From an uncultured bacterium (GTDB lineage Bacteria; Bacillota; Clostridia; Lachnospirales; Lachnospiraceae), in contig CANRVD010000018.1 in the NCBI GenBank assembly GCA_947643145.1, forward strand, positions 1-45,305: a DNA stretch of 45,305 bases, read 5' to 3'. Positions 8,466-39,176 of this stretch are shown piece by piece. Every line of letters begins with the position of its first letter. Within the stretch, counting starts at the first letter, position 1. The notes beneath the pieces were generated by a model. The model saw only the letters and a list, made by a program, of their open reading frames with translations. It searched no databases and was not told the origin of the DNA. Made by a program: the position numbers and the translations under genes.

Positions 8466-9572
8466 TTACTCAAAAACAACACAAGTCATAGACTGATTAA
8501 CAAAACGATTATTATAATGCTCTCCATACCCAACCAACCCGGCATGACTACCTAAGACACTCATTTCCTGCAGATACTCTTCCATATAATTATTGTCATT
8601 AAAAAGCATATACCGAAACAGACAGTTTACAGAAAACACAGCAGAAACTCTTGGAAAATCTCTTTGGATTGTCCTGATGGTATTTTTGACAATTTCTTTA
8701 TAATCTCCCAACTCCAGCATAATAAGTACATCCGAATCATTTACCTGACGAAAACAGGTTAATGCATTCCCACTGACTTCTTTAATGGAAATAATACAGG
8801 TATCATCTCCATTAACTTTTCCAAAAGGATTTTTAAAGGTCTGTGTTTGTATTTCATTCTCTGTTATATGAAGAATATCCTGATAGACCTGTTTTGAAGG
8901 CATTCCGTTTAATTTTCCTAATTTATAATCCGCTTTATCCGTTCCTGAGGCAACAAAACGATACTTCCCCATCTGATGATAAATATTTTCTTTATATGCT
9001 TTTATCCTGCCATGGTTATTTTTAATTAGTGCATATGCTACTCCATCGTGATAAACTTTACCATTGGCTGACACCCTTCCTCCATCACCAGTCCCACCAA
9101 TCAGCGAAATATTATTATGTTTTAATACACTGTAAATCGTAGTTAGTGCACAGGCATCATTTCCAGAACAAAAATCAATGCACACTGTATTCTCATCGGA
9201 ACTATTAATTTTATGTACATCCTGCCTCAAACGTTCAATATATTTCACCGGCATGACAGATACCTCTTCTAACACATTCGCAGTCGCACTGACACCATCA
9301 AAAAAAGCAACAACACCCACACCTTTTTCCACTACCTTTGTATCATAACTCATCCCAATGCAACCAATACTGGGAACATGAGGATATAGCGCTTCTAACT
9401 TTTTTACATGTGCTTCAAATTGCTCATCATTAGATAGAAGCATAATCAATTGAGGGTCTCGCAGCCCTTGGACTGCCTCCTGCAGATTTCCACTCTGACT
9501 CATACCAAAAAACTGTCTCAAAACATTTTCCTCTCTTCCTTTAAAATATACTCGCATTTTATCAAGTAGCAT
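8466..9572 (-). CDS. FIST domain sensory protein
   Basis: A 368-residue protein resembling FIST_N plus FIST_C, a predicted small-ligand (possibly amino acid) sensor domain often linked to chemotaxis or GGDEF/kinase proteins. Supporting features are the glycine motif [10 protein letters not shown] in the middle and the C-terminal GYGEHYNN. There is no signal peptide or membrane span, so it is cytoplasmic. It lies 13 bases upstream of the soluble chemotaxis transducer, which suggests a two-protein sensing unit. The start is uncertain. TTGACT-18-TATAAT overlaps the first ATG at 9572. If that promoter is used, the second ATG at 9557 ([10 protein letters not shown]) would be the start, with almost no leader. 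Confidence 0.88.
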
Positions 9573-9633
9573 TATACTTCATGTCAACGCAATAAGTCAA
9601 TGATAACTCTTTAATCCTACAGAACATAACATG

Positions 9634-11562
9634 TTACTGTTCTTTAATAGTTCCTGATTTATACGCCTTTAGCAGCTTTCTCAAATCATCGATTCTTTCT
9701 AATATTTCTTCACCCTTGTCGGTATCCGATATATTAGCCCTGCTTTCAAGTTTTTCTACAAGCTGAATCTTTGGTGTTTGATTACTTTTTCCTGATATAA
9801 ATGGTTTATGTTCGGCAAGGCTTAGACTGTGTGAATCGTAAATCAAAGTGTATCCGGCAATTCCTGTCGCCTTCTGGTATGCTTTTGAAATTCCTCCGTC
9901 AATTACAAACAGCTTTCCGTCTGCTTTAACAGGGCTTTCTCCATTTTTAATCTTTACCGGAACATGTCCGTTAATGATATGTCCTCTGTTTTCGTCAATG
10001 CCAAACATATTTAAGATTCGGTCACATACTGCCACATCCTGCGAAAAAACATAATAGTCATTATAGCTCTCCTTATGCAGCTTTTCATCATCTATATAAT
10101 AACTTTCAAAAAACGCCATTTTATCCTTACCGAATAACGGGGAATTGGAGCCACACCACAAATACCACATAAAGTCACAGGCATACTCTTTTTCCTTTGT
10201 ATTATCATAAGAAAAATATGCCCTGTTCACTATTTCATCCAGCTTATCCAAAAGAATTTTTCCACTGTAACTTTTGCCATTTATATTCACGCTCTGCAGC
10301 TCTCCCTTTTCGTCCATAGGAATGCACCCATGAAAAAGCAAATTACTGTTACATACATTATACATAGAACCTTTCGCAAAAAGAAACTTAATATGCTCAT
10401 GCAGCTTTTCACTGTGCAAAAAAGAATTCGTAAGCACCGTCATAAGCTCTTTTTCTCCATCAGAAAGAACTAATGGGTTATCTGATTTCACAGTTGGGAA
10501 AAAATTGTCCTTCAACTTATAAACATTTCCACCAATTTCAACTGTATTGTCAGAAAAATTAATTTTTGCAAATAAACTACGCTGCTGCATTTCCCATTCC
10601 GGATATTTTGCCATAAGCTGGCCTTCCAGTTTAAGCTGGATTACCGTGATTGCCTTGTGCATTTTTGCGACAAGCTTCGCATCAACAGGATCATAGATAT
10701 TGTCGTCCAGTGTGTTTGGATAATAAAGCTTACATTCATCATCTTTGTAAGCCTCCGCTGCAAATACCGCCAGTGCACGCAGATTCAGCCCATAGCCATC
10801 CTCTAATACGTCAAAGTTATTATAACGCATGGCAATTCGGATTACATTGGCAATCAATGCCGGATTTCCTGATGCTGCGCCCATCCATGAGATATCATGA
10901 TTTCCCCACTGTATGTCTACATCATGCATAGACATCAATTCATCCATAATGATATCTGCTCTTGGACCTCTGTCATAAATATCACCGATGATATGAAGCT
11001 TGTCAATTGCCAGCGACTGAACCAGCCTGCATAATGAGATAATAAACTTTTCGTCAAGTTCCGTATCAATAATTGTATTAATAATTTCCTCGTAATAAAA
11101 ATCCTTATTGACATCATCCGTAACATTCAGCAATTCATCAAGAATATATACCAAATCTTTTGAAACACGTTTCCTCACTCTTGAACGGGTATATTTTGCT
11201 GATACGGATTCACAGATCAAAATCAGACGGTAAATCGTCAGCCTCTTCCATTCATCTGTAATCAGATTTCTGCCTGATAATGCTTTTATCTCCTTTTCCG
11301 GATAATATATCAGGCTGGCAAGAGCCTCACGCTCAGCGTTAGACACTGTCTTCCCAAAGACTAAATCAATTTTTTTCTTAATGATTCCTGACGCACTTTT
11401 CAGCATATGCAAAAAAGCTTCATATTCACCATGTAAGTCACTGAAAAAATATTCCGTACCCTTTGGCAGACTGCGTATTGCCGACAAATTTACCATTTCA
11501 CTTGCCACACTATCAATGGTGGGATACTCCTTTGCAAGAAGTTTTAAATATTTATTATCCAT
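9634..11562 (-). CDS. fbp: Fructose-1,6-bisphosphatase class III
   Basis: A 642-residue enzyme that hydrolyses fructose-1,6-bisphosphate to fructose-6-phosphate in gluconeogenesis. It is the Firmicutes class III type, with the calcineurin-like metallophosphatase motifs SDLHGEYEAF near residue 38, GDIYDRGPRAD, WGNHDISWMG and NGHVPVK. Length fits the family (about 640-670). The start at 11562 (MDNKYLKLLA) is supported by AAGGG six bases upstream. A longer reading from 11601 has no such site and runs into an inverted repeat. It lies downstream of ptsI, separated by 125 bases with two hairpins. Its place next to PTS genes suggests control of flux between PTS sugar entry and gluconeogenesis. Confidence 0.95.
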   Translation of the reverse strand: MDNKYLKLLAKEYPTIDSVASEMVNLSAIRSLPKGTEYFFSDLHGEYEAFLHMLKSASGIIKKKIDLVFGKTVSNAEREALASLIYYPEKEIKALSGRNLITDEWKRLTIYRLILICESVSAKYTRSRVRKRVSKDLVYILDELLNVTDDVNKDFYYEEIINTIIDTELDEKFIISLCRLVQSLAIDKLHIIGDIYDRGPRADIIMDELMSMHDVDIQWGNHDISWMGAASGNPALIANVIRIAMRYNNFDVLEDGYGLNLRALAVFAAEAYKDDECKLYYPNTLDDNIYDPVDAKLVAKMHKAITVIQLKLEGQLMAKYPEWEMQQRSLFAKINFSDNTVEIGGNVYKLKDNFFPTVKSDNPLVLSDGEKELMTVLTNSFLHSEKLHEHIKFLFAKGSMYNVCNSNLLFHGCIPMDEKGELQSVNINGKSYSGKILLDKLDEIVNRAYFSYDNTKEKEYACDFMWYLWCGSNSPLFGKDKMAFFESYYIDDEKLHKESYNDYYVFSQDVAVCDRILNMFGIDENRGHIINGHVPVKIKNGESPVKADGKLFVIDGGISKAYQKATGIAGYTLIYDSHSLSLAEHKPFISGKSNQTPKIQLVEKLESRANISDTDKGEEILERIDDLRKLLKAYKSGTIKEQ

Positions 11563-34097: not shown

Positions 34098-35261
34098 ATG
34101 AAAACAAATCCAAACTATACAATTTGCAACTTTGACGGCACCTCTTATCTGCTTCCCTTTGGCCAGGCAATCGCTGACCAAAGGCGTGGAATGCAATTAG
34201 GTGAATCCGGTATATTTTTATGGAACAACCTGTCGGACGTACAGAACAAAGAAGAGCTTCTAAACCGTTTTCTGGCACATTATGAAGCAGCACCGGAAGA
34301 TATTCCTACACTGACACAGGATTTAAACCATTTTCTTTTTCTTCTGACTTCCCTTGGTATCATTCCAAAGGACTGGAAAGAGAGCACTTTCACAGAATTC
34401 TCCTCACTACATCTGCAAATTGGAACGATTCACTTATGTCTCCGCGGAAAGGAAGAGGCCTTTCCAAAAGAATTTCTTCCGTTCCAGACAGATTCCTCTT
34501 CCGCTACAGATTTGACAATAGAACTTAGAACCGGACATCCACCGCTTTCTGACAACGGCACTGTTCTTATCCAAAATGAGCAGCTCCGCATATGGGAATA
34601 TGCGGATTATTACCGCCTGCTTTTTCCTGAGGCAAAACAGTTAACAGAAGCCTATTTATCCAAAGATGGTTCTTTTTCCTGTATTTACTATATTCCTGCC
34701 AATGATGAGGAACTTCTCTACGAACTGTTTCATGCCATCCGCCTGCTTTACCTATATACTGCCCGAATGAAGGGCTGCTATGCCCTTCATTCTGCTTCAC
34801 TCCTCTATCAGGACAAGGCCTGGCTTTTTTCAGGGCACTCTGGAATGGGGAAGTCAACCCACACAAGACTCTGGAATACACTGTTTGACACCCCTCTGCT
34901 CAACGGAGATTTAAACCTTCTTGCCTTCCTTGATGGCAAACCCGTAATTTATGGAATTCCGTGGTGTGGCACATCCGGCATCTCAGATTCCAAAACCTAT
35001 CCCCTTGGCGGAATTATCCTGCTGTCCCAGGCAGAACAAGACGAATGTGTAAAACTTTCTGCAGACCAGAAAACACTGCTTATTATGCAGCGCCTGATTT
35101 CTCCCGCCTGGACTGCTTCTATGTTGGAGGAAAACCTTGCCTTTACTGGCAGGCTTTCAAAGCAGACCCATGTATGCAGGCTGAAATGTACAAAGAATCC
35201 TTCCGCTGCCCATACAATGAAAAAGTGGATTGATAGTTACTGTTCACTACATGACCAGTAA
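34098..35261 (+). CDS. PqqD-like domain fused to HPr-kinase-like protein
   Basis: A 387-residue two-part protein. Residues ~8-88 look like a PqqD-type peptide-binding (RRE) domain (YLLPFGQAIADQRRGMQLGE). Residues ~215-385 resemble HPr kinase: CYALHSASL with H231, P-loop SGHSGMGKST (245-254) and D271 in NGDLNLL. Such kinases occur in ribosomal-peptide clusters, where some phosphorylate the precursor. The start at 34098 has GGAG seven bases upstream. The frame stays open to a TTG at 34005, but that lies in a likely -35 box (TTGAAA). I infer that it recognises the shared leader of the proteins at 36127 and 38820. Confidence 0.8.
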   Translation: MKTNPNYTICNFDGTSYLLPFGQAIADQRRGMQLGESGIFLWNNLSDVQNKEELLNRFLAHYEAAPEDIPTLTQDLNHFLFLLTSLGIIPKDWKESTFTEFSSLHLQIGTIHLCLRGKEEAFPKEFLPFQTDSSSATDLTIELRTGHPPLSDNGTVLIQNEQLRIWEYADYYRLLFPEAKQLTEAYLSKDGSFSCIYYIPANDEELLYELFHAIRLLYLYTARMKGCYALHSASLLYQDKAWLFSGHSGMGKSTHTRLWNTLFDTPLLNGDLNLLAFLDGKPVIYGIPWCGTSGISDSKTYPLGGIILLSQAEQDECVKLSADQKTLLIMQRLISPAWTASMLEENLAFTGRLSKQTHVCRLKCTKNPSAAHTMKKWIDSYCSLHDQ

Positions 35262-35293
35262 CAGCAGCGTTTTTAATACTGAAGAATGCACAC

Positions 35294-35334
35294 ATTTTGC
35301 CAGGGCACAGACTTCGCTTGTGCTCTGGCAAAAT
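35294..35334. repeat. Strong hairpin after the PqqD/kinase gene
   Basis: ATTTTGCCAGgGCACA pairs with TGTGCtCTGGCAAAAT around GACTTCGCT. There is no T run after it on the plus strand, so it may be a weak terminator or RNA-stability hairpin. Confidence 0.6.
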
Positions 35335-35379
35335 AATCAAAAATAGCATAGCCATGCAGAGAAGGAGTAACAACGAGAA

Positions 35380-35820
35380 ATGATGAGTACCAATATCTCA
35401 AAAAAGTACCCGAAATTTTACAAAAATTATCACAAGAACATTACTGTGAAAAACTGTGAACTATATGGCGCTTCAGCCGAAGGACTTGCTCTCCTGAACG
35501 CAGCAGACCATCACATCATCAATAATAAAATCACTTCCGATGGGACAGTCACCAAAAATAACTACTCAGATGGGCTGCACATTATTTTATTTGGCAACAA
35601 TAAATCCAGCAAAAAATATGCCAACAGCATCACAGGCAACGCCATCCGCGGAAAAGTACATGGAGTCAATATGTGGTCCTTCACAAAGGCATTGTATGGA
35701 AAAACCACAGCCAAAAAGAATAAGATATATACCAAAGCCGGAAAAAAATCAGAAGCTTTTTTGATTCGCTGCTGCACCAAACGTGTCGTATCTGGAAATA
35801 AAATCGGTAAGTGGAAGTAA
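35380..35820 (+). pseudogene. Right-handed beta-helix protein fragment
   Basis: A 146-codon frame with parallel beta-helix repeats (NITVKNCELYGASAEGLALLNA, here split as NITVKNCELY and GASAEGLALL; HIINNKITSDG; NSITGNAIRG; RVVSGNKIG). Normal family members are several hundred residues and secreted. This one has no signal peptide and starts in mid-helix, so it is probably the remnant C-terminus of a surface polysaccharide-acting or adhesive protein. GGAG lies 12 bases before the ATG pair, slightly far. It is also possible that it is a short functional protein. Confidence 0.55.
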
Positions 35821-36049
35821 ATCAGCATATCACAATTTCCTAAATCTGTAACACTTGTTGTGTATCCTTTTTCGGCTTTTGCCCCACACTCCATACATAC
35901 CTTAAATCAATGCCCCTTACTTCTTTATTGATATTCTCATTATAACGAAATCCCACTACTTTTCAAGTTCTCCCTTTTACTCTTCACCCTCAAACGGGTG
36001 AAAACAGTAACTAGGCAGGAAAAATCTGTAAATAACGGCCACAAATTCC
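35821..36049. other. Gene-free stretch before the first leader-bearing protein
   Basis: I see no gene here. The only structure is a small hairpin, TTCACCC-TCAAAC-GGGTGAA, near 35984-36003. The promoter of the next gene follows. Confidence 0.5.
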
Positions 36050-36078
36050 TTTACTCCCCAAAAATTTAGTGTTATAAT
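36050..36078 (+). promoter_or_regulatory. Promoter of the first leader-bearing protein
   Basis: TTTACT (36050-36055), 17 bases, then a perfect TATAAT (36073-36078). It lies about 48 bases before the ATG. Confidence 0.7.
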
Positions 36079-36126
36079 TATAGTATCAATCAATAAGCTT
36101 TAACAACTTATAGAAAGGAGTAGGAT

Positions 36127-36579
36127 ATGAAAAGTTATGAAAAGCCAATTGCAGTTGTAAACGATGAGCTGAGCGAAGGCGTATATGCAGCAAGTGGTAC
36201 AAACAGCGCAGACTGTTGGACAATTAACTCATATTCTGTACAGGATTGGAATGGTTCCCACCATGTATTTGAAGTTAAAATAGTACATTCTGATGCAGTA
36301 AAACATATTTCAACTGCATCAACCTCTGTTATAACATTCAGCAATACTGTAACAGATGCTTATAGTGAGGGCAATTGTACAGCTACTTTTAGTGGTAATA
36401 CCGTAACTGTAGTACGTACACTTCATGCAAACGCATATCAGTCTGGTGACGTTGCAACCTATAAGGTTTGGGTAAAATCTACTGATGAAGCTTCTACAAA
36501 AGCTATTACCTGTACCGGCTCTTCAATCTCCTGCACTAAGTCAGTAAATGTTCAGGGTGAAGGCGGAGATGGTAGCTGA
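36127..36579 (+). CDS. Leader-bearing small protein 1 (beta-rich passenger)
   Basis: A 150-residue protein of unknown family. Residues 1-24 form a leader (KPIAVVNDEL, then EGVYAASG) sharing 21 of 24 residues with the protein at 38820-39176. After it comes a Thr/Ser/Val-rich region with alternating hydrophobic pattern, suggestive of a small beta-sandwich, ending in a flexible GEGGDGS tail. Cysteines are at 30, 84, 129 and 136. There is no classical signal peptide. GGAG lies six bases before the ATG, with its own promoter and terminator. I infer a precursor or cargo exported by the adjacent ABC transporter, possibly with disulfides or modified residues. It might be a bacteriocin or a surface/secreted factor. 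Confidence 0.75.
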   Translation: MKSYEKPIAVVNDELSEGVYAASGTNSADCWTINSYSVQDWNGSHHVFEVKIVHSDAVKHISTASTSVITFSNTVTDAYSEGNCTATFSGNTVTVVRTLHANAYQSGDVATYKVWVKSTDEASTKAITCTGSSISCTKSVNVQGEGGDGS

Positions 36580-36591
36580 TAATTCATGACA

Positions 36592-36622
36592 GCAGAAATC
36601 TTACGAAGTACGATTTCTATTG
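36592..36622 (+). repeat. 3'-end hairpin repeat, copy 3
   Basis: AGAAATC pairs with GATTTCT around TTACGAAGTAC (inner TAC/GTA). It begins 13 bases after the stop of leader-bearing protein 1. It belongs to the family at 11644-11680 and 24999-25028. Confidence 0.6.
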
Positions 36623-36732
36623 TTTTCACTTATTATTTTTTGCGTGTGGCATCCTATCGTTATAACTCTCTTTCCTATACACGCAGATAATAATCACACA
36701 GATTGTTTTATTATTATCTGGTATGTTTTCGG

Positions 36733-36767
36733 GCAGCATCACTGACAGGCAGTGATGCTGCTTTTTT
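36733..36767 (+). terminator. Intrinsic terminator after leader-bearing protein 1
   Basis: GCAGCATCACT pairs perfectly with AGTGATGCTGC around GACAGGC, followed by TTTTTT. It separates the precursor from the ABC gene, so the exporter needs read-through or another promoter. Confidence 0.95.
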
Positions 36768-36864
36768 CAAAATATATGATATCAGGGACAAAAGCAGATT
36801 TGCTTACAAAATACCTTTTGTCCCAAGCATCAGGATATTTATTTACAGAAAGGATTCCTATTCC

Positions 36865-38649
36865 ATGAGAGAAAAACTGAAGTTCATTATTGGCAGAATC
36901 AAGGCAGGACGCCTGCAGGAAATGAAAAAACAGACCATTTGGATTTACCAGTATGCCAAACGCTACTGGCTTATTATGATATTATATACCCTTCTTGGCA
37001 TGGTAAGTACTGTGATTTCTCTGGTAATTAGTATGGTTTCCAGAGATTTGGTAGATATCATTACCGGTCATGAAACAGGTGAGGTAATCCAGACCTTCTG
37101 CATGATGATTGGATTAAATGTAGGAACCACTTTTTTAAGTCAGATATCGGATTATGCTTCCAGCTACCTGAGTATGAAGGTAGACGCTGAAATCAAGACA
37201 GATATTTTCTCCAAAATCCTTGTAACGGACTGGGAATCCCTGACGAACTACCACACCGGGGATTTACTGACACGCTGGAGCTCGGATGCCTCCAACATCT
37301 CGTCAGGCGTGTTAAACTTCGTCCCAAATGCAATTATATATTTGTTCCGCTTTATCAGTGCTTTCTCCATGGTAATTTATTATGATGCCTCCTTTGCCAT
37401 CTTTGCCTTTCTAGGAATGCCAGTCAGCCTGCTCCTTTCAAAAACCCTTTTAAGGCGCATGGTAAGAAATAATGAGCGCAGTGCCGCTATGGGTGCTAAA
37501 ATGTCAGGCTTTAATCAGGAGACCTTTTCCAATATACAGACCATTAAGGCATTTGATTTAATACATATCTATATTGAACGTTTAAAACAGCTGCAAAAAG
37601 AATATATCAGTATGAAACTTGATTTCCAAAAGATGTCCATGGGAACCTCCATCTTACTTTCTACCGTTGCCCTTTTGGTTTCCTATGCCTCCTATGGCTG
37701 GGGACTTTACCGTGTATGGAGCGGAGCAATCAGCTACGGTACAATGACAATGTTTTTAAGCCTTTCCGGTACATTGACCGGAACCCTGCACAATCTCACC
37801 TCGCTGGTACCGTCCGTCATCTCCCTTACTACTTCCGCTGGAAGGCTGATGGATATTATCGAAATGCCGCGTGAGGACTACAGCCATAATGATGAAGTTG
37901 CTGCTTTTTGGAATCAAAATAAAGAAAACGGAATCAGCCTGCAAATAGAGAATCTGGAGTATTCTTATAAAACAGGTACCAAAGTTTTTCAGGATGCTTC
38001 CTTAGAAGTACATCCGCATGAAGTCATTGCGCTTGTCGGTCCTTCCGGTGAAGGCAAAACTACTATGATACGCCTGATTCTCTCCCTGATGCAGAGTCAG
38101 GGCGGCAGCGCCTTTCTCTTTGGCGGAAGCACCACGAAACAGGCATCCGGTTCTAATACGGTTGCACTGACACCTTCCACCCGTAAGCTCTTTTCCTATG
38201 TTCCACAGGGAAATACCATGTTTTCCGGCACAATTGCCGAGAACATGAGAAATGTAAAACCGGATGCTACGGACGAAGAAATTATAGAAGCGCTGCAACT
38301 GGCTTGTGCATGGGATTTTGTAGAAAAACTGCCAATGGGAATCCACAGTGAAATCAAAGAACGCGGCGGCGGATTTTCTGAGGGACAGGCACAGCGCCTC
38401 TCCATTGCCAGGGCACTCCTGCGCCGCTCTCCGATTCTTTTGTTGGATGAAGCGACCTCTGCCCTTGATGTTGCAACGGAACGGCGTGTACTCAAAAGCA
38501 TCATGCGTGATGAATATCCACGCACCTGTATTGTGACCACACACCGCCCTTCTGTCCTGAATATCTGTAAACGTGTTTATGCCATACAGAATAAATCCTG
38601 TGTTGTGCTGAGTGAAAAAGAAATTGATGATATGATGAGAAATTTTTAA
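36865..38649 (+). CDS. ABC exporter of the leader-peptide locus
   Basis: A 594-residue fused exporter. Membrane segments lie in residues ~30-330. The ATPase domain has Walker A GPSGEGKT at 392-399, an unusual signature FSEGQAQRLSIARALL in place of LSGGQ, and Walker B ILLLDEATSALD. It has no N-terminal C39 peptidase domain, so it does not itself cut a leader as bacteriocin PCAT transporters do. The start at 36865 (MREKLKFII) has AAAGGA upstream. The frame is open from 36703, but that part contains the terminator hairpin and is not coding. It probably exports one or both leader-bearing proteins; this rests on position. Confidence 0.88.
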   Translation: MREKLKFIIGRIKAGRLQEMKKQTIWIYQYAKRYWLIMILYTLLGMVSTVISLVISMVSRDLVDIITGHETGEVIQTFCMMIGLNVGTTFLSQISDYASSYLSMKVDAEIKTDIFSKILVTDWESLTNYHTGDLLTRWSSDASNISSGVLNFVPNAIIYLFRFISAFSMVIYYDASFAIFAFLGMPVSLLLSKTLLRRMVRNNERSAAMGAKMSGFNQETFSNIQTIKAFDLIHIYIERLKQLQKEYISMKLDFQKMSMGTSILLSTVALLVSYASYGWGLYRVWSGAISYGTMTMFLSLSGTLTGTLHNLTSLVPSVISLTTSAGRLMDIIEMPREDYSHNDEVAAFWNQNKENGISLQIENLEYSYKTGTKVFQDASLEVHPHEVIALVGPSGEGKTTMIRLILSLMQSQGGSAFLFGGSTTKQASGSNTVALTPSTRKLFSYVPQGNTMFSGTIAENMRNVKPDATDEEIIEALQLACAWDFVEKLPMGIHSEIKERGGGFSEGQAQRLSIARALLRRSPILLLDEATSALDVATERRVLKSIMRDEYPRTCIVTTHRPSVLNICKRVYAIQNKSCVVLSEKEIDDMMRNF

Positions 38650-38670
38650 CCAATCGTTACTATTTTATAA

Positions 38671-38734
38671 AATAAGAATATCCAATGGAAAACTATATGT
38701 TAAAAAACACGAATTTCCACTGGATATTCTTATT
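38671..38734. terminator. Long bidirectional terminator hairpin
   Basis: AATAAGAATATCCA plus TGGAAA pairs with TTTCCA plus TGGATATTCTTATT, a stem of about 20 bp with one internal mismatch. A second hairpin, AAGGGGCT (38742) with AGCCCC followed by a T run (38770), adds plus-strand termination. They separate the exporter from the convergent protein 2. Confidence 0.85.
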
Positions 38735-38819
38735 TGGTACTAAGGGGCTTAAAATCAGTATTAACCGACAGCCCCCTTTTTAAGTACAAATATTTGATTA
38801 GAGTTACACAACCACAAAG

Positions 38820-39176
38820 CTACATAGCCCAGTCAGTAACAGGGTCATTTGGCCCATATCCCTTTCTCTCCCAGGATGGCATACGGTTGCCATCATCCAC
38901 ATCGTAACTTGAAGCATTGCCAGACTCAACATAATGTGTCTGCAGTCCACAACCATTATCGGTATTTGCTGGACATCCAAGACAGGCAAACTGTTGCTTA
39001 TAACCTCTTGTCTTCCCGCCCCAGTCAGAGTAATCCGGAGCCTGCCAAACACCTTTCATGTATTTGCTGTCACATTTTGGTCCGTTATCACCACTTGTGT
39101 TGCTGCCACTTGCAGCATAAACGCCTTCAGCCAGTTCGTCGTTTACAACTGCGATTGGTTTTTGATACTGTTTCAT
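38820..39176 (-). CDS. Leader-bearing small protein 2 (Cys/Trp-rich passenger)
   Basis: A 118-residue protein of unknown family, convergent with the ABC exporter. Residues 1-24 match the leader of protein 1 at 21 of 24 positions. The rest is unrelated: glycine-, aspartate- and tryptophan-rich with cysteines at 35, 65, 68 (CLGC) and 76 and tryptophans at 44, 52, 102 and 116. The start at 39176 is firm, with AAAGGAGG upstream; an in-frame ATG at 39206 overlaps that site. Like protein 1 it has four cysteines and no signal peptide. I infer a second cargo or precursor of the same machinery, made from its own promoter with a long leader. Confidence 0.75.
   Translation of the reverse strand: MKQYQKPIAVVNDELAEGVYAASGSNTSGDNGPKCDSKYMKGVWQAPDYSDWGGKTRGYKQQFACLGCPANTDNGCGLQTHYVESGNASSYDVDDGNRMPSWERKGYGPNDPVTDWAM

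Follow-up and report, generated by a model that had tools for sequence, protein, structure and literature searches.

A shared leader peptide on exchangeable small domains co-occurs with an RRE-kinase fusion and an ABC exporter in Lachnospiraceae: a candidate variant of the linear polyphosphorylated peptide principle

Two small proteins encoded in a 45,305 nucleotide contig of an uncultured Lachnospiraceae bacterium (the window) share a 24-residue leader, carry unrelated passengers, and lie beside an RRE-kinase fusion and an ABC exporter (Table 1). The initial annotation of this DNA had suggested leader-guided modification and export with exchangeable passengers, a suggestion that comparison with related genomes supports at the gene level. 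Our preferred reading, to which we give a probability of about 60% on sequence evidence, is that the leader guides phosphorylation of Ser23, export, and cleavage of exchangeable domains, in a manner like that of the linear polyphosphorylated peptides (LPP) made by lpp clusters of Paenibacillus alginolyticus (Popov et al. 2026, PMC13381572). In this reading the YxxP part of the leader would be bound by the PqqD/RRE portion of the fusion protein, and the kinase half would then phosphorylate the invariant Ser23 at the junction of leader and passenger. Export of the precursor by the MsbA-like ABC protein would follow, and lastly an unlinked signal-peptidase-like serine protease, acting in trans, would remove most of the leader near Tyr20–Ala22. 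The predicted product is a small folded domain with a (phospho)Ser near its new N-terminus, whose phosphate may be elaborated by a nucleotidyltransferase encoded elsewhere in the genome. Since such machinery would read the leader only, the passenger would be free to change.

Table 1 Features of the window locus and of a second module in the same genome
Feature	Position	Strand	Description
RRE-kinase	34098..35261	+	387 aa; PqqD-type RRE fused to HprK-related P-loop kinase domain
Precursor 1	36127..36579	+	150 aa open frame: 24-residue leader and 126-residue passenger
Leader of precursor 1	36127..36198	+	Codon 23 (36193-36195) encodes the invariant Ser, the proposed phospho-acceptor
ABC exporter	36865..38649	+	594 aa; TM and ATPase regions, MsbA-like, no C39 peptidase domain found
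Inverted repeat	38670..38735	.	Arms of 22 nt with 95% complementarity, separating the convergent genes for exporter and precursor 2; probably a terminator for both directions
Precursor 2	38820..39176	-	118 aa open frame: 24-residue leader and 94-residue Cys-containing passenger
Leader of precursor 2	39105..39176	-	Codon 23 is 39108-39110
Second module, window genome	L235:7447-13162 (G000:C1)		Discrete PqqD protein, Stealth, flippase-like protein, NTP_transf_5 nucleotidyltransferase, glycosyltransferase

Comparison of the first 24 residues of the two precursors reproduced the 21 identities reported earlier, and the codon count also agreed: ten codons differ, seven synonymously and three nonsynonymously (14 of 72 bases). 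Not mentioned earlier is that these genes are encoded on opposite strands. The passengers were said to be unrelated in sequence, and they are: their local alignment scores 29, against a mean of 26.7 (sd 4.6) for shuffled sequences, and 141 of 500 shuffles score at least as high as the real pair. Between the kinase and precursor 1 genes lies a 146-aa frame (35380-35820, + strand) with a weak right-handed beta-helix match; it has no BLAST match among 19 genus loci and may be a gene remnant. The window genome is a draft, 83.9% complete, in 153 contigs.

A search with the 24-residue peptide found leader matches in 15 of 28 genomes of the genus, and a profile of 21 leaders found them in 24 of 397 genomes of the family, spread over 21 genera, a recurrence by which the likeness of the leaders exceeds chance. 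One match, in G338, is partial (model positions 2-16, in a 458-residue frame) and is probably due to chance. Relatives beyond the genus and family samples were reached by a contig scan with kinase alignment A4, from which the best 80 were taken; a single-sequence contig scan with the window kinase gave 0 relatives among 16 pattern matches. The samples and relatives together yielded at least 92 distinct precursors, after removal of eight exact duplicates from 100 entries. The system is present in Lachnospiraceae and in Erysipelotrichaceae-labelled genomes, and the relatives include Anaerobutyricum hallii DSM 3353 (L154) and Eubacterium plexicaudatum ASF492 (L138). Among the 92 listed distinct precursors, Pro7, Glu17 and Ser23 are invariant, and Tyr4 and Gly24 are each present in 91. 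Ser23 is never replaced by Thr and stands 19 residues after the Tyr, a distance constant in all 92. The leader ends in Ser-Gly in 91 cases, in Ser-Asn in one and never in Gly-Gly, where the last leader motif also defined the leader end and rejected none of the precursors found by the profile. At position 22, 87 of the listed precursors have Ala, Gly or Ser; at position 21, 19 have Met.

The leaders were also compared with one another within the listed set. Those that share a locus and carry unrelated passengers have a mean agreement of 0.77 (17 pairs), compared with 0.62 for leaders of related passengers at different loci (870 pairs) and 0.58 for leaders of unrelated passengers at different loci (3205 pairs). 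In 10,000 random samples of 17 pairs taken from the 0.58 group the mean never exceeded 0.69; the pairs are not independent of one another. By this measure a leader resembles those of its locus-mates more than those of related passengers, which suggests that leaders track the protein that reads them. Where passengers are related, their leaders are only modestly better conserved than the passengers themselves: 0.60 versus 0.51 in the P1 class (leader ahead in 103 of 136 pairs) and 0.60 versus 0.54 in the P2 class (ahead in 74 of 105).

Passengers of the listed precursors range from 53 to 147 residues. BLAST linked 63 of 91 passengers (one precursor cut by a contig end was left out) into one chained class; 15 others, that of precursor 2 among them, form a second class, four with 53-58 residues a Cys-rich class, and the rest smaller ones. 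The class of precursor 2 bears the signature CDSKYM...CLGCPA...CGL. Comparison of class profiles relates P1 to IHQ (97%, E 6e-11), gives P1 a weak match to the CBM2-like class (29.5%, hhalign) and connects neither the P2 nor the Cys-rich class with any other. Two of three D-type passengers score above the Pfam CBM_2 cut-off of 24 bits (L027, 31.7 bits; L156, 26.4 bits; L148, 22.6 bits). Neither window passenger matches CBM_2 in Pfam, and Pfam and PDB searches returned no fold for the P1 and P2 classes. The sizes of the window passengers, 94-126 residues, are as noted earlier, but cores of this size have ceased to be exceptional, since published LPP precursors span 35-200 residues (PMC13381572). 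At seven loci (L027, L042, L043, L119, L122, L127 and L128) the precursor gene is distant from all cassette genes within the sequence read; these are dispersed cargo genes, one of them CBM2-like.

The passengers are Ser/Thr-rich, and in lasso peptides of the paeninodin type the kinases act on a C-terminal Ser (PMC7533575). Both points would suit a system in which the leader is a recognition and export tag, the kinase phosphorylates Ser or Thr residues of the passenger, and Ser23 is kept for cleavage or export. However, class comparison found no residue common to all the unrelated passenger classes, and the Ser kept in every listed leader stands at nearly the LPP spacing; we leave phosphorylation of the passenger a minor but real chance. 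Passenger exchange, together with the patchy presence of the leader (15 of 28 genus genomes), is typical of conflict systems and could point to bacteriocins or contact toxins, with exchangeable antagonistic passengers and dedicated ABC export. Against this, no recurrent immunity-like gene was recognised among the annotated neighbour clusters present in at least four of the 95 listed loci, and CBM_2, which some of the passengers match, is a binding module; we consider a toxin system improbable.

The reader proposed for the leader is the RRE-kinase. It had been described as a PqqD/HPr-kinase fusion, of which the PqqD part stands (25.7 bits against a Pfam cut-off of 23.4) and the kinase label is weaker, the HprK models falling below cut-off. 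HprK-related NCBIfam models match with E-values of 0.0065, 0.011 and 0.085, far below cut-off, and the closest named models, the ScmC/HprK-related TIGR04249, TIGR04352 and TIGR04355, also remain below theirs. Alignment by hhalign with the genome's own HPrK covered 40 columns at 6.8% probability, a weak P-loop match. The domain has a P-loop and conserved H/NGD/PWCGTS motifs, and its features point weakly to an HprK-type identity. The RRE profile, compared with the PDB, matched TbiB1 (E 5.5e-5) and LppB (9x8z, E 0.0048). In LppB, D70 hydrogen-bonds the leader Tyr and a pocket Asn fixes the bend at the Pro (PMC13381572). When we mapped the published pocket residues onto the LppB chain, the residue aligned with D70 was Asp in 26 of 29 kinases and that aligned with F74 was Phe in all 29. 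The position aligned with N33 was Asn in 28, the exception being the window RRE, which has Gly (residue 34 in the 34101 reading). Gene arrangement varies among the relatives. In G389, two RRE-kinase genes (L121:5814-6953 and 9323-10612) flank one exporter and one precursor. At L133:7246-10600 and L136:7255-10780 the RRE and kinase genes are separate and accompanied by the protease and by an exporter (427 and 392 bits); these may be genuine LPP-type clusters or be related to an unfused ancestor.

An ABC exporter does stand beside the leader genes, as first annotated. MsbA-related models are among its best matches, below their equivalog cut-offs. A leader with a dedicated ABC exporter recalls double-glycine (C39) export, which we reject because no C39 domain is among the exporter's 19 Pfam matches and the leader ends in Ser-Gly. 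Of the 28 genus genomes, 16 have the exporter and precisely these 16 have the RRE-kinase, namely all 15 with the leader and G026; only one of the 13 genomes without leader thus has both. Here the kinase count takes full-length RRE-kinases above 200 bits, found in 16 of the 19 genus genomes with a match at E<=1e-20, the other three matching the kinase domain only. G026 (76% complete) contains kinase, exporter, protease and nucleotidyltransferase and gave no leader match; its leader may have diverged, or may fall in a part that the incomplete genome lacks. Full-length RRE-kinases are found in 22 of the 397 family genomes, 21 of which have the leader; the association (Fisher 1e-30) takes no account of kinship and, the genomes being related, should not be read as the chance of independent events. 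G123 has a kinase and no leader match. The leader genomes outside the 21 are three: G173 (68% complete), which has leaders and no kinase match, G338 with its probable chance match, and G239, in which the kinase was called in two pieces and reads as one 412-residue frame beside leader and exporter.

Across at least 74 loci with a leader, the kinase is also present in 54, the exporter in 57 and both in 52, counts that, like those of neighbour genes over 95 loci, omit seven loci from the kinase contig scan that repeat contigs already counted. The 22 listed leader loci with kinase, exporter or both missing from the fetched stretch include contig ends and dispersed precursor genes, and 13 of 62 listed full-kinase loci have no leader in the stretch. 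According to the initial annotation, leader homologues without a linked kinase or exporter would refute the system, whereas a search with the leader alone should find diverse passengers next to both genes. Unlinked leaders do occur, at these 22 loci; we reject them as a refutation because every leader-bearing genus genome carries the kinase, and the exporter too, elsewhere. The search itself found the leader on several unrelated passenger classes, with kinase and exporter in all 15 leader genomes. Three loci with precursor and exporter and no linked kinase (L031, L038 and L041, in G015, G004 and G014, respectively) might still suggest that the kinase is a regulator or chaperone and the leader pair a mere secretion signal for the exporter. 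Yet all three genomes carry the kinase elsewhere, and the kinase has a PqqD/RRE domain in which the Tyr-binding Asp is conserved, so we see little chance of this. Least credible by far is that the leader likeness is a functionless relic of recent gene conversion or duplication: 81% of the bases and 21 of 24 residues are identical within the locus, but most of the changed codons (7 of 10) are synonymous and the leader is conserved in the genus, in 21 genera of the family sample and in the listed precursors, on which grounds we reject recent copying, as had been argued from the codons before.

The remaining predicted steps, cleavage and elaboration of the phosphate, involve genes that are often unlinked. 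A signal-peptidase-like serine protease is linked in 48 of the 95 listed loci; its family (A5) has invariant Ser, His and Gly-Asp and scores below cut-off against the TIGR02228 and SipW models. It occurs in 15 of 28 genus genomes, 14 of them among the 15 with the leader (G027, 65% complete, lacks it) and the other being G026. The window genome encodes it on another contig (G000:C9:31433-31918), where the surrounding 19.5 kb contain no kinase, exporter or leader. At E<=1e-25 the protease is found in 20 of the 22 family kinase genomes and in 34 of the other 375, so its family is wider than the leader system; G415 has leader and kinase and no protease at that threshold. An NTP_transf_5 nucleotidyltransferase is linked in 35 of the 95 listed loci and present in 14 genus genomes, comprising 13 of the 15 with the leader and G026; that of the window genome (149.6 bits) is unlinked, on contig C1. 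If Ser23 is the counterpart of LPP Ser3, the protease would cut after Tyr20 to give AAS, comparable to AQS in LPP; alternatively, it could cut after Ala22.

LPP clusters encode one to three precursors, 35-200 aa long, whose N-terminus is conserved and whose C-terminus varies; the kinase phosphorylates Ser3 of the core, which lies 18 residues beyond the leader Tyr, adding multiple phosphates and leaving an S3T variant unmodified, and the protease cleaves after Thr-1 and requires the RRE (PMC13381572). The system described here matches these clusters in its five predicted functions and shares with them the YxxP leader, RRE, a putatively HprK-like kinase, MsbA-like exporter, SipW/SpI-like protease and NTP transferase, the form of the precursors, the association with capsule-type genes and a nearly equal Tyr-to-Ser spacing (19 versus 18). 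It differs in that the RRE is fused to the kinase rather than discrete, the protease and nucleotidyltransferase are often unlinked, and the passengers, of 53-147 aa, include related beta-rich and CBM2-like classes. The leaders, YxxPxVLxHQxIxFETxxS in LPP and an xxEGVYAASG core here, have only YxxP and the Ser in common. As the LPP leader core and a discrete RRE were looked for and do not describe it, we do not file the system as LPP. By analogy it probably works like LPP, as an unreported variant of that principle. The main text of the LPP paper (PMC13381572) names neither Lachnospir- taxa nor Clostridia, and we found no description of an EGVYAASG-type leader or an RRE-kinase fusion in the open-access literature of PMC.

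Two other known systems are similar in part. Phosphorylated lasso peptides of the paeninodin type have an RRE, an HprK-like kinase that modifies a C-terminal Ser (PMC7533575), a nucleotidyltransferase and a [Y/W]xxP leader; the passengers here are far larger, and the neighbour clusters that recur in four or more of the 95 listed loci revealed neither a macrolactam synthetase nor a B2 protease. The SynChlorMet-related families provide the best named models for the kinase domain (TIGR04249, TIGR04352 and TIGR04355), but scores are far below the family cut-offs and no SynChlorMet cassette was seen.

If the LPP-like reading is right, a single leader-reading kinase and a single exporter would serve gut Lachnospiraceae in exporting small domains of a changing repertoire, in part similar to carbohydrate-binding modules, and the LPP principle would extend from short linear peptides to folded-domain cargo. 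Reader and kinase would be united in one protein, easier to study than separate parts, with a single residue, Ser23, predicted for modification. The leader would then offer a natural tag for exporting and phosphorylating foreign domains.

A use for the modified Ser23 can be suggested with some reserve. Stealth proteins transfer sugar phosphates. They are found in eight of the 28 genus genomes, all eight among the 15 with the leader and none among the 13 without (Fisher 0.002). In the window genome, Stealth and the nucleotidyltransferase stand beside a discrete RRE, a flippase-like protein and a glycosyltransferase (Table 1). From this neighbourhood, and from the co-occurrence of nucleotidyltransferase (13/15) and Stealth (8/15) with the leader in the genus, it is conceivable, though doubtful, that phospho-Ser23 serves for attachment: the nucleotidyltransferase, helped by the Stealth-type sugar-phosphate transferase in genomes that have one, would link it to a surface glycan, and small exported binding domains, some of them CBM2-like, would be displayed on the capsule through an N-terminal phosphodiester. 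Such a linkage, if true, would be a new way to anchor proteins on Gram-positive cells. Another locus (L232, on G018:C307) encodes two PqqD-like proteins, Stealth, two nucleotidyltransferases and the protease. There, a protein at L232:6989-7414 starts near a WVQP motif, followed by NEYVAAC, and is possibly a second leader type, WxxP.
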